IMG/VR virus record: IMGVR_UViG_3300045885_000285
Coordinates: 1 to 24,735 of that record
Length of the DNA: 24,735 bases
DNA from: a virus
Strand: one strand, 5' to 3'
Shown here: positions 58 through 2,184 of the stretch, one piece after another
Numbering within the stretch: position 1 is the stretch's first letter
Layout: every line of letters starts with the position of its first letter
The notes under the pieces: generated by a model
Database searches by the model: none
Told to the model about the DNA's origin: nothing
What the model saw: only the letters and a program-made list of their open reading frames with translations
Program-made: the position numbers and the translations under genes

Positions 58-615
58 TCAAGCCCTAGTTGCGCACTCAGGCGCCAGATGCGGCCCGTCG
101 TCCAGCCTTGGCCGGCCGATCCACCCCCGCAATTCGCACCACAGATCGAGGGCCAGCATGTAGTTGGCCATGGCCATGCCCTGCCCGAGCCCATGCCTGC
201 GCTCGACCTGGCCGAGGGTCAGCGGCTCGGCGAGGCAGTCGATCGCAGCGTTCACCACGATGCGGCGACGAGGCGCCTCGATCACCCATTCCCGCCAGGT
301 CGCATCGGCAGATGCGCCGATGTCGATCCGCACAAGACCGGAACCCTGTCGACCGTAGCGGCTCCCTGATGCGCCAAGGCCTGCAGTGCGCGCGCGCCAC
401 GCGAACTCCATCTCCTTCTCGGCCTCCCGCTGCATGCCGGTGAGCTGGTTGTGCCGCCACGCCTCGCTCTGCCTGCAACGGGTGAGGTTGCGCCTGGTCT
501 TGCGCTTGGCCTCGGGATCGTCGACCGCGATCTCGACGGTGGGCGAGTGCCGCTCCTGCCAGTCGAGCGCGTCGCGGCCGAAGCGGCGCTTTCGGGACTT
601 CTTGGCCTTGGCCAT
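58..615 (-). CDS. Phage protein of unknown function, possible late regulator by position
   Basis: This 185-residue protein has a very basic N-terminus (residues 1-13 are mostly Lys and Arg). A charged helical middle (about residues 55-75) and a C-terminal part (about 105-170) with the look of a helix-turn-helix follow: a VVNAAIDCLAE helix, the turn LTLGQVERRHGLG, then a hydrophobic helix ending in DLWCELRGW. The ATG overlaps the TGA of the upstream gene as TGATG, so it is probably translated by coupling as the last gene seen in the replication operon. In λ-like phages this place after the replication genes often holds a late-gene regulator, which fits a basic HTH-like protein. That is inference from position only, and I cannot name the family. 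The 57 bases beyond its stop to the window edge hold no gene I can support. Confidence 0.8.
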   Translation of the reverse strand: MAKAKKSRKRRFGRDALDWQERHSPTVEIAVDDPEAKRKTRRNLTRCRQSEAWRHNQLTGMQREAEKEMEFAWRARTAGLGASGSRYGRQGSGLVRIDIGASADATWREWVIEAPRRRIVVNAAIDCLAEPLTLGQVERRHGLGQGMAMANYMLALDLWCELRGWIGRPRLDDGPHLAPECATRA

Positions 616-1433
616 CAGGGCTCCGCGAGCTCGGCGGCCTCTCGCTCGAGCTGCTCGGCCATGCCGTTGTGGCCCTGCCGGCGGAACGTCTGCGCCTGGT
701 TGCGCAGGCGCGCGGCCTCGTAGTCGTTCGGGAATTTTCGAAGTTTAGGTGCGGACGGAACCGGACCAGGCGTCGCGGCAGTCCGCTCGATGCTGCTCGG
801 CTGGTGGCGGCCTTCCATCCGGGCGATCTGCTCGTCGAGGTTGGCGACTTGGCCCTCGTGACCGAGCCTCGCGTAGTAGTCCCTCGCCTGCCGTGCGCCC
901 TCGAGCCTGCGGGCATCGAGAGCCTTGCGTGCAGCAACCCGCCAATTGCCTGACGGTACACCGCCTTCGGCTCCTTCACCCTGCGCCTCGAGCATCTGCC
1001 GCACACGCCGGATCTGCGTCTCGCGCAGGTCGAGCTTGTGGGCGACCAGGGCCCTGAACTCGGACGGCTTGGGCATCCACTTCGACGTCTGCAGCGCTGC
1101 CAGCGTGGCCTCGGTCCAGAGCGCATCGCCCAGGTCGCCGTTGGCCTCCAGCCAGGTGATCCTGCGCCCCTTCGCCTCGGTCTCCGTGATCTTCACGCCG
1201 ACCTCGAAGGCGAGCCCGAGCTTGGCGAGGCAGAACCCGGCATGGCGATCGTCGGTCGGCGAGACCTGCAGGATCGCGAGCGCGTCCATGAGCTCGCCGT
1301 GTGCCGGCGGCACCTCGGGCGGCTGCCAGGCCTCGCCGGGGACGACGGGGTCAGCCAACAAGCGGGCCAAGGTATCCGGCAAGCGCCGCTGATAGGCCGC
1401 GTTCTTCGGGGTCGTTACGAGTCGGTTTGACAT
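615..1433 (-). CDS. Replication-module protein of unknown function, possible helicase-loader analogue
   Basis: This 272-residue soluble protein follows the DUF1376 gene directly. Residues about 75-130 include a WLEANGDLGDALWTEATLAA stretch followed by WMPKPSEFRALV. I associate this arrangement with phage proteins encoded beside replication initiators, in the slot where λ has P. The second half is Arg/Gln-rich and predicted helical, with repeated charged segments near the C-terminus. The start gives an 83-bp overlap with the end of the upstream gene. The third codon positions of this frame look more genuine than those of the upstream gene in the overlap, so I keep the long start, but a later start such as the internal MDALAIL is possible. 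Its stop overlaps the next ATG as TGATG. A loader role is inferred from position, and no ATPase motif is visible. Confidence 0.8.
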   Translation of the reverse strand: MSNRLVTTPKNAAYQRRLPDTLARLLADPVVPGEAWQPPEVPPAHGELMDALAILQVSPTDDRHAGFCLAKLGLAFEVGVKITETEAKGRRITWLEANGDLGDALWTEATLAALQTSKWMPKPSEFRALVAHKLDLRETQIRRVRQMLEAQGEGAEGGVPSGNWRVAARKALDARRLEGARQARDYYARLGHEGQVANLDEQIARMEGRHQPSSIERTAATPGPVPSAPKLRKFPNDYEAARLRNQAQTFRRQGHNGMAEQLEREAAELAEP

Positions 1434-2184
1434 TGGTGCCCACCAAGAAATTCACGAAGTAGCTGTCGAAGTCGAAGCTGCGTTTTGCGCTGTGCCGGCA
1501 ATAGTTTTTGAACTCGAGGATACGCTTCTCGAAGAACTCGGCGCCGATGTCGGGCCGGGCTCTTTCGGCGCGCAGCCGAACCTCCTCGGTCGGCCACCAG
1601 TCGTCGGGGAGTTGGGACGGTCGTCGATCGAGGAAGGCTGGCATCGGCCCGGGCGGATCGGGCTCTTCGCTCGGCTGAGGCGAACCCCGGGTGGGGTCGC
1701 GCGCGCGCGCGCTTGACGTGCGTGCTGCTTCCCCAAAGTCATTATTATGGGGTAATGGGGTGATGGGGTGATGGGGTAGGTTTTCGTCCGGCGTGTCCGT
1801 GCTTTCCGTCTGGAAAGCGAACGCTTTTTCGGTTTCCTTATCTTTCAATGGCTTGGATGATTTGCGGGGACGACCTCCTTGCAATCCTGACGACACCGCA
1901 GATTTCGATTTGACCCACGACTTTTGGAGTTCCTCGTCGCACCTCCGCTGGTGCCATCCGTCGTCCTCGAGGATGAAGAATTCGGCCAGGACGGCCTCGA
2001 CTGCGGCCTGCTCGGACCTCGTCCTGGCACCCACCAGCCGGGCCACGCGCTTGATGTCTGCCGGCAGGGGCCGCTCGGTCTGGTAGTAGACCCCGATCAT
2101 CCGGCGATAGGCGGCGTCCTCGACGAACGACAGGTGCTGGGTCGCTGCGGCATAGTCGCCGATGTGATGCTTGTAGTACCGCAT
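1351..2184 (-). CDS. DUF1376 (YdaU-like) phage replication-initiation-type protein
   Basis: This 277-residue protein opens with MRYYKHHIGDYAAATQHLSF and continues to about residue 88. That is the N-terminal pattern of the DUF1376/YdaU family, which in phages lies beside replication genes and is thought to act like an initiator. The ATG at 2184 overlaps the TGA of the RuvC-like gene (TGATG). The frame stays open upstream to 2619, but that part is antisense-quality sequence inside the RuvC-like gene. A Pro/Asp/His-rich low-complexity linker (about residues 105-185) separates the N-terminal domain from a C-terminal part with FDFDSYFVNFL. The linker is encoded by an A+T-richer stretch with four 8-bp tandem repeats and hairpins, listed separately, which recalls the origin inside λ gene O. 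The family call is good; the biochemical role is inferred. Confidence 0.88.
   Translation of the reverse strand: MRYYKHHIGDYAAATQHLSFVEDAAYRRMIGVYYQTERPLPADIKRVARLVGARTRSEQAAVEAVLAEFFILEDDGWHQRRCDEELQKSWVKSKSAVSSGLQGGRPRKSSKPLKDKETEKAFAFQTESTDTPDENLPHHPITPLPHNNDFGEAARTSSARARDPTRGSPQPSEEPDPPGPMPAFLDRRPSQLPDDWWPTEEVRLRAERARPDIGAEFFEKRILEFKNYCRHSAKRSFDFDSYFVNFLVGTNVKPTRNDPEERGLSAALAGYLGPLVG
1698..1712. repeat. Alternating C/G run
   Basis: This is an uninterrupted 15-base CGCGCG run inside the linker-coding part of the DUF1376 gene, about 35 bases from the 8-bp tandem repeats. Long alternating CG tracts can adopt the left-handed Z form under negative supercoiling. In this GC-rich genome it may simply reflect the Ala-Arg codons (SSARARD) it encodes. 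Confidence 0.5.
1735..1862. other. Candidate phage replication origin inside the DUF1376 gene
   Basis: This stretch combines the four 8-bp repeats (1747-1778), a perfect 7-bp-arm inverted repeat GCTTTCC-GTCT-GGAAAGC (1801-1818), an overlapping inverted repeat AAAGCG-AA-CGCTTT (1814-1827), and a pyrimidine/A+T-rich run (about 1823-1850) that stands out from the GC-rich surroundings. The two hairpins share bases, so only one can form at a time. The combination of iterons, a hairpin and an easily melted tract within a replication gene is the classic plan of λ-type origins. No experimental support is available from sequence alone. Confidence 0.4.
1747..1778. repeat. Four tandem 8-bp repeats (iteron-like)
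   Basis: The plus strand reads ATGGGGTA, ATGGGGTG, ATGGGGTG, ATGGGGTA with no gap. The two outer units are identical to each other, as are the two inner ones. Because 8 is not a multiple of 3, loss or gain of a single unit would shift the DUF1376 reading frame. The array lies in the linker region of a replication-type gene next to hairpins and locally A+T-rich DNA, the arrangement seen in iteron origins such as λ ori within gene O. An origin role is inference. Confidence 0.75.

Follow-up and report, generated by a model that had tools for sequence, protein, structure and literature searches.

Tandem 8-bp repeats inside a phage DUF1376 gene as a candidate replication origin

Does a phased run of short repeats in the middle of a phage gene mark the place where replication starts? 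The question is raised by the window analyzed here, a whole virus record of 24,735 bp (IMG/VR IMGVR_UViG_3300045885_000285; 67% GC). Profile searches of the record found genes for a repressor, an exonuclease, a RecT-like protein, an endolysin, and tail proteins, which identify it as a tailed phage that is probably temperate. We consider it likely that the repeat-bearing stretch is the replication origin of this temperate-type phage and that, like lambda ori in gene O, it sits within the gene for the phage's initiator. The relevant features are as follows.

Positions 615 to 1433, minus strand: next gene (272 amino acids), overlapping the end of the DUF1376 gene, at the helicase-loader position of relatives
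Positions 1351 to 2184, minus strand: DUF1376 gene (277 amino acids; PF07120, E = 5e-32), with the Pfam domain at 1927 to 2178
Positions 1735 to 1746, no strand: A+T-rich stretch and candidate unwinding side, directly past the array in the coding direction
Positions 1747 to 1778, coding strand TACCCCAT CACCCCAT CACCCCAT TACCCCAT: four tandem 8-bp units, candidate iterons, directly after the DUF1376 domain
Positions 1801 to 1818, no strand: inverted repeat GCTTTCC-GTCT-GGAAAGC, read from the sequence and predicted by folding to form a hairpin
Positions 1814 to 1827, no strand: inverted repeat AAAGCG-AA-CGCTTT, read from the sequence, with a 2-nt loop
Positions 1828 to 1862, no strand: A+T-rich stretch upstream of the inverted repeats in the coding direction

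The array reads ATGGGGTA/ATGGGGTG/ATGGGGTG/ATGGGGTA on the plus strand, in exact 8-bp phase, and the motif ATGGGGTR is confined to it within the window (four copies found versus 0.83 expected). Its self-identity at lag 8, 22 of 24, is the window maximum over all places and all lags from 4 to 25; dinucleotide shuffles of the whole window (n = 60) reached 19 at most. The four exact-phase 8-bp repeats of the original prediction are thus borne out, and the array is the only strong tandem repeat of the 24.7-kb record. Their predicted location in linker-coding DNA also holds, with the array encoding the peptide PHHPITPLPHN, itself not repeated, in a linker modeled at low confidence. When the protein was held fixed and its codons were redrawn, none of 400 simulations equaled the lag-8 value (mean 13.8). 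The tandem repeats that follow the domain in the window thus exceed anything the protein sequence calls for. Their period is 8 and not 7 (lag 7, P = 0.75 by synonymous randomization).

The host gene scores 110.5 bits against PF07120 (curated cut-off, 30.1). No homology of its product to lambda O was found: Pfam and PHROGs returned DUF1376 alone, with no match to a lambda O family. PHROGs assigns DUF1376-related proteins to 'primosomal protein', and the product is a probable replication initiator. In a structure model, the domain is predicted at a pLDDT of about 95, with a winged-helix type of topology (HHHH-EE-H), and the linker is disordered. The top Foldseek matches of the domain model were mostly winged helices, none with an E value below 0.1, and a sequence search of the PDB with the domain gave nothing convincing. 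The protein is probably built from a winged helix at the N terminus and a small helical part at the C terminus, joined by a disordered linker. The product of the next gene matched no family in any profile library, nor any of the proteins encoded downstream in relatives.

The local A+T-rich tract that had been claimed for this GC-rich genome is real. Positions 1735 to 1862 have 47.7% GC versus 67% for the record, the lowest of all its 128-nt windows, so A+T-rich DNA lies beside the repeats as in the lambda-type arrangement. Within this region, 1803 to 1862 is the lowest-GC 60-nt window of the record, the 30-nt segment beginning at 1833 is the least stable in the window, and the one beginning at 1735 is among the two least stable. 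The claim of two overlapping hairpins survives in part. Both inverted repeats exist and share 5 nt; however, the 2-nt loop of the second speaks against a stable hairpin, so 'inverted repeat' is the better term for it, and the pair is not common to relatives. Folding of the hairpin region was only modestly better than that of shuffled sequences (z = −2.3 and −1.6). The core of the second inverted repeat, GCGAACGC, also occurs in the 11-bp repeats of some relatives, on the coding strand there and on the opposite strand here, and could be common to them through chance. Separately, a (CG)n tract resembling GCGCGCGCGCGCGC lies at 1697 to 1712 in the same linker, about 35 bp beyond the array; alternating CG of this type can form Z-DNA.

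Short arrays turn out to be a wider trait of DUF1376 genes. We gathered such genes by protein similarity, blind to arrays (a first scan with the whole protein, two later ones with the domain only), which yielded 122 usable genes that fell into 41 clusters when grouped by their linkers' sequence. In this set, the mean best self-identity over 24 nt was 18.6 at lag 7 and 15.6 at lag 11; multiples of these lags gave 16.9 (lag 14), 16.5 (lag 21), and 14.3 (lag 22), and the remaining lags 11.0 to 13.2. Identity exceeded that of synonymous randomizations at lag 7 in 36 of the 41 clusters and at lag 11 in 23, versus 0 to 5 clusters at the control lags (4 to 6, 8 to 10, 12, 13, 15, and 16). Typical units are CACCAGA, AACCATA, AACCAAG, TAGCCAC, and ATTACCC, and the 7-bp unit approximates xCCAxxx. 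In 38 of 40 clusters, the best lag-7 place within about 7 kb of locus fell in the post-domain part of the DUF1376 gene, a part that makes up about 9% of that DNA. Comparison with homologs, which had been proposed as a check on both repeats and hairpins, gave a divided answer: A tandem array follows the domain in nearly all close DUF1376 genes, but the hairpins are not shared, and the matching place upstream of the 7-bp array more often holds 11-bp repeats, which are frequent there. The refuting observation that had been named, relatives with no repeats at this position, was not what the comparison showed. The 8-bp repeats are real in the window, but across the family the unit is mostly 7 bp long and the 8-bp form is rare.

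In bacterial genomes searched with the Pfam model, a lag-7 excess was present in 9 of 20 strong DUF1376 matches (4 of the 20 overlap loci already in the comparison) and in none of nine divergent ones. The short-array trait is therefore one of the family's main branch and not of every member. Two of the 20 strong matches have a 6-bp array (AACCAG), which could be a protein effect. Post-domain repeats of 6 bp (AACCAG) or 12 bp (ACCCCCCTAGAT) were seen in the bacterial DUF1376 genes L346, L352, L325, and L332, which suggests that the repeat period varies more widely across these genes. In Vibrio phage 1.183.O (L253, 27814 to 27843), the submitters annotated a 'CRISPR spacer' where the repeats of the DUF1376 gene lie; these repeats were probably mistaken for a CRISPR.

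The association also holds in the reverse direction. A gene-blind scan of viral contigs with the pattern (ACCANNM)x4+ACC returned at least 120 loci. Among the matches listed, our own profile found DUF1376 genes at 113 of 120 loci and Pfam found DUF1376 in 112 of 119 reading frames (114 of 121 including the window and locus L248); three of the seven other listed loci (L167, L183, and L193) look like truncated or frame-shifted members. A C-richer pattern, ACCCATN, lay in DUF1376 genes in 39 of 51 cases. Arrays in these genes were found on the coding strand only. The first 8-bp pattern detected the exact unit in no other virus, and broader patterns found one DUF1376 gene, L248, that matches the array, phase, and place of the window. 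Perfect ACCCCATN arrays lay outside DUF1376 genes, in unrelated DNA, at six of seven loci, so slippage also produces such repeats. The DUF1376 gene of Acinetobacter phage vB_Aba_QH4 has an 8-bp-phase array of a different unit, TTAACCCA. Period 8 thus occurs in 3 of the 157 DUF1376 genes compared (the window, L248, and vB_Aba_QH4), a share that is a lower bound since many of the 157 were picked by the 7-bp pattern. A tree of the domains, which at about 100 residues is poorly resolved and was used solely for this minimum, forces at least two changes of the 8-bp label.

Repeats were also seen elsewhere. On the minus strand of L313, near 1,500 to 1,700, a long 11-bp CGTTCAACGNN run is followed by a 7-bp ACCCATT array without an intact DUF1376 frame, which may be the same element in expanded or decayed form. 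The unrelated phage contigs L289, L294, and L295 contain apparently non-coding (TGACCCA)n arrays, near which L289 and L295 have GGGTCA repeats in the opposite orientation; these represent a different repeat element.

Synonymous change is strongly reduced across the repeats. Among 48 close relatives of Polynucleobacter type, synonymous differences at sites encoding the same residue were 0.034 to 0.085 at the repeat-bearing codons 121 to 156 versus 0.22 to 0.53 elsewhere, and the most variable array codons (Q140, V143, and T148) coincide with the free positions of the unit. Two groups gathered almost wholly without the pattern gave 0.04 to 0.16 at the repeats versus mostly 0.45 to 0.65. In two further groups the values at the repeats were 0.03 to 0.09, biased low there because these groups were gathered mostly by pattern. 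Altogether, the reduction is roughly 3- to 15-fold in five gene groups. These rates describe the arrays of relatives; that of the window has no close relative for a rate test. Together, the excess over the needs of the protein and the collapse of synonymous change show that the array is a conserved nucleic-acid element, not merely a protein linker. The constraint could fit an element acting as DNA or as RNA.

The surroundings of the arrays resemble those of an origin. Of 74 relatives, 17 have a gene for a P-like loader directly downstream and about 10 one for a DnaC-like loader; DnaB-like or primase-helicase proteins are also encoded there. The order cI-cII-DUF1376 in Xanthomonas phage Rb1 and Pseudomonas phage phPA-G puts the gene in the place of lambda gene O, and in phPA-G a primase/helicase gene follows next. 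The array and the 20 to 40 nt after it are GC-poor in relatives. GC skew, another proposed check, agreed weakly: Coding-strand skew steps up at the array or about 500 bp past it in 56 of 76 loci (P = 2 × 10−6 at the array), with no step 500 to 1500 bp upstream in the 76 loci; the signal is weak because every locus has the same gene at this point and the loci are related to one another. In whole-phage skew of three records, the minimum lies within about 1.2 kb of the gene in AbTJ, and the others are confounded by strand switches; we put no weight on this skew. As for DUF1376 as the sole replicon, the one plasmid record examined also carries RepM and so gave no clean case.

What else might such an array be? 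A repeat kept for the protein linker, or one left by slippage with no function, would agree with the Pro-rich linker and with perfect arrays of like kind in unrelated DNA. We hold this very improbable: The excess over synonymous versions is at lags 7 and 11 only, synonymous change collapses, and the window peptide is unrepeated. Synonymous randomization and synonymous rates both disfavor the protein-repeat reading. Even less credible is action as a G-quadruplex by the four GGGG runs at 1749 to 1776. They form the sole such motif on the plus strand of the window, but most family arrays (CACCAGA, AACCAAT, and AACCATA) are unable to form one, and we rejected this as a general mechanism because the four G-runs are not kept in most relatives' arrays.

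Two functional alternatives deserve more weight, though both are unlikely. The C/A-rich repeats might act in the mRNA, as the binding site of a regulator that controls how the replication operon is translated, how stable its transcript is, or how transcription elongates through it. Constraint is established at the nucleic-acid level alone and the arrays keep to the coding strand, as such an element would have it; fixed orientation is equally expected, however, if origin and gene move together, and there is no Rfam match, the array itself is predicted unpaired, and upstream 11-bp repeats with an A+T-rich dip are typical of origins. Somewhat less probable still, the DUF1376 protein might bind this DNA for a purpose other than initiation, either at an operator for self-regulation or at a recombination or packaging site. 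Constraint and exclusivity fit this equally well, and winged-helix domains are often regulators, yet the array sits in mid-gene and not at a promoter, and loaders and helicases lie directly downstream.

An intragenic origin best accounts for an array that lies in an initiator-type gene, with a loader encoded next door in relatives, an A+T-rich dip alongside, and lambda as a precedent. On this reading, the DUF1376 protein would recognize the repeats within the coding sequence for its linker, open the adjacent A+T-rich stretch, and pass the site on to the helicase loader or DnaB encoded by the neighboring gene; we infer protein binding, melting, and replication start at the array. Counted against an origin are a synonymous constraint that could act on RNA, a unit far shorter than known lambdoid and plasmid iterons, a next gene in the window that matches no loader, the unshared hairpins, the 7-bp excess in just 9 of the 20 strong bacterial matches, the ACCCCATN arrays in unrelated DNA, and a fold comparison without significance.

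As in lambda ori within gene O, the repeats occupy the linker-coding middle of an initiator-type gene, with their DNA conserved among relatives, A+T-rich DNA adjoining, and, in relatives, a helicase loader gene downstream (P-like in the 17 noted above). Unlike lambda, which has four iterons of about 18 bp, the units here are 7 to 8 bp and have no spacers. Iteron plasmid origins, such as those of R6K and P1, also set the initiator's direct repeats beside A+T-rich DNA, but those iterons are about 17 to 22 bp and lie outside the rep gene. The predicted lambda-ori-like plan is thus supported, as an inference, by arrays conserved in relatives and tied near-exclusively to DUF1376. Most likely, the origin is intragenic as in lambda but sits in another family of initiators, and the window is a rare 8-bp member of that family.

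The Rac prophage of E. coli has an active origin, oriJ (PMC3945230). Its DUF1376 gene is ydaU, and the gene after it encodes an ATP-binding protein; YdaU is, however, a divergent member without a 7-bp array. In place of such an array, the ydaU linker DNA of E. coli K-12 (L124, 4510 to 4640) contains copies akin to GTGTTCAAACA together with AAAGATACAGAT-like repeats. This DNA is a candidate for part of oriJ, whose exact position we did not find in the literature searched. For Obolenskvirus, an origin has been suggested from short direct repeats in the middle of a replication protein gene upstream of the helicase; the repeats are given as nine to about twenty bp, in one genus (PMC10888812). The vB_Aba_QH4 phage described above is an Obolenskvirus. 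An origin at repeats of a replication gene has therefore already been proposed there, but without the family-wide pattern: DUF1376 is absent from the text, as is any test of constraint or distribution (PMC10888812). In the literature searched, with subscription papers outside its scope, we found no description of the family-wide array, its period, its constraint, or its near-exclusive tie to DUF1376; by title and abstract, none of the papers found there to mention DUF1376 concerns intragenic repeats or an origin.

More tentatively, DUF1376 may possibly define a separate, widespread class of phage initiators that use contiguous units of 7 bp (rarely 8 bp, perhaps 6 bp), often with upstream 11-bp repeats, with period 8 having arisen more than once. 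Units of 7 bp are shorter than one helical turn and too tight for one ordinary dimer each, which would call for a filament of the initiator or of a partner along the array, perhaps on single-stranded DNA. The array occurs in the isolated phages Xanthomonas Rb1, Pseudomonas phPA-G, Acinetobacter phiAC-1, Vibrio 1.183.O, and Thalassomonas BA3, which makes the origin prediction directly testable; single cases were also found in a Chlorobiaceae phage record and a Planctomycetaceae genome bin. If the prediction is true, a protein family whose name still reads 'of unknown function' would gain a role, and the origin in many Pseudomonadota phages and prophages could be located by a sequence signature; the very short, tight unit would raise the question of how an initiator reads such an array.
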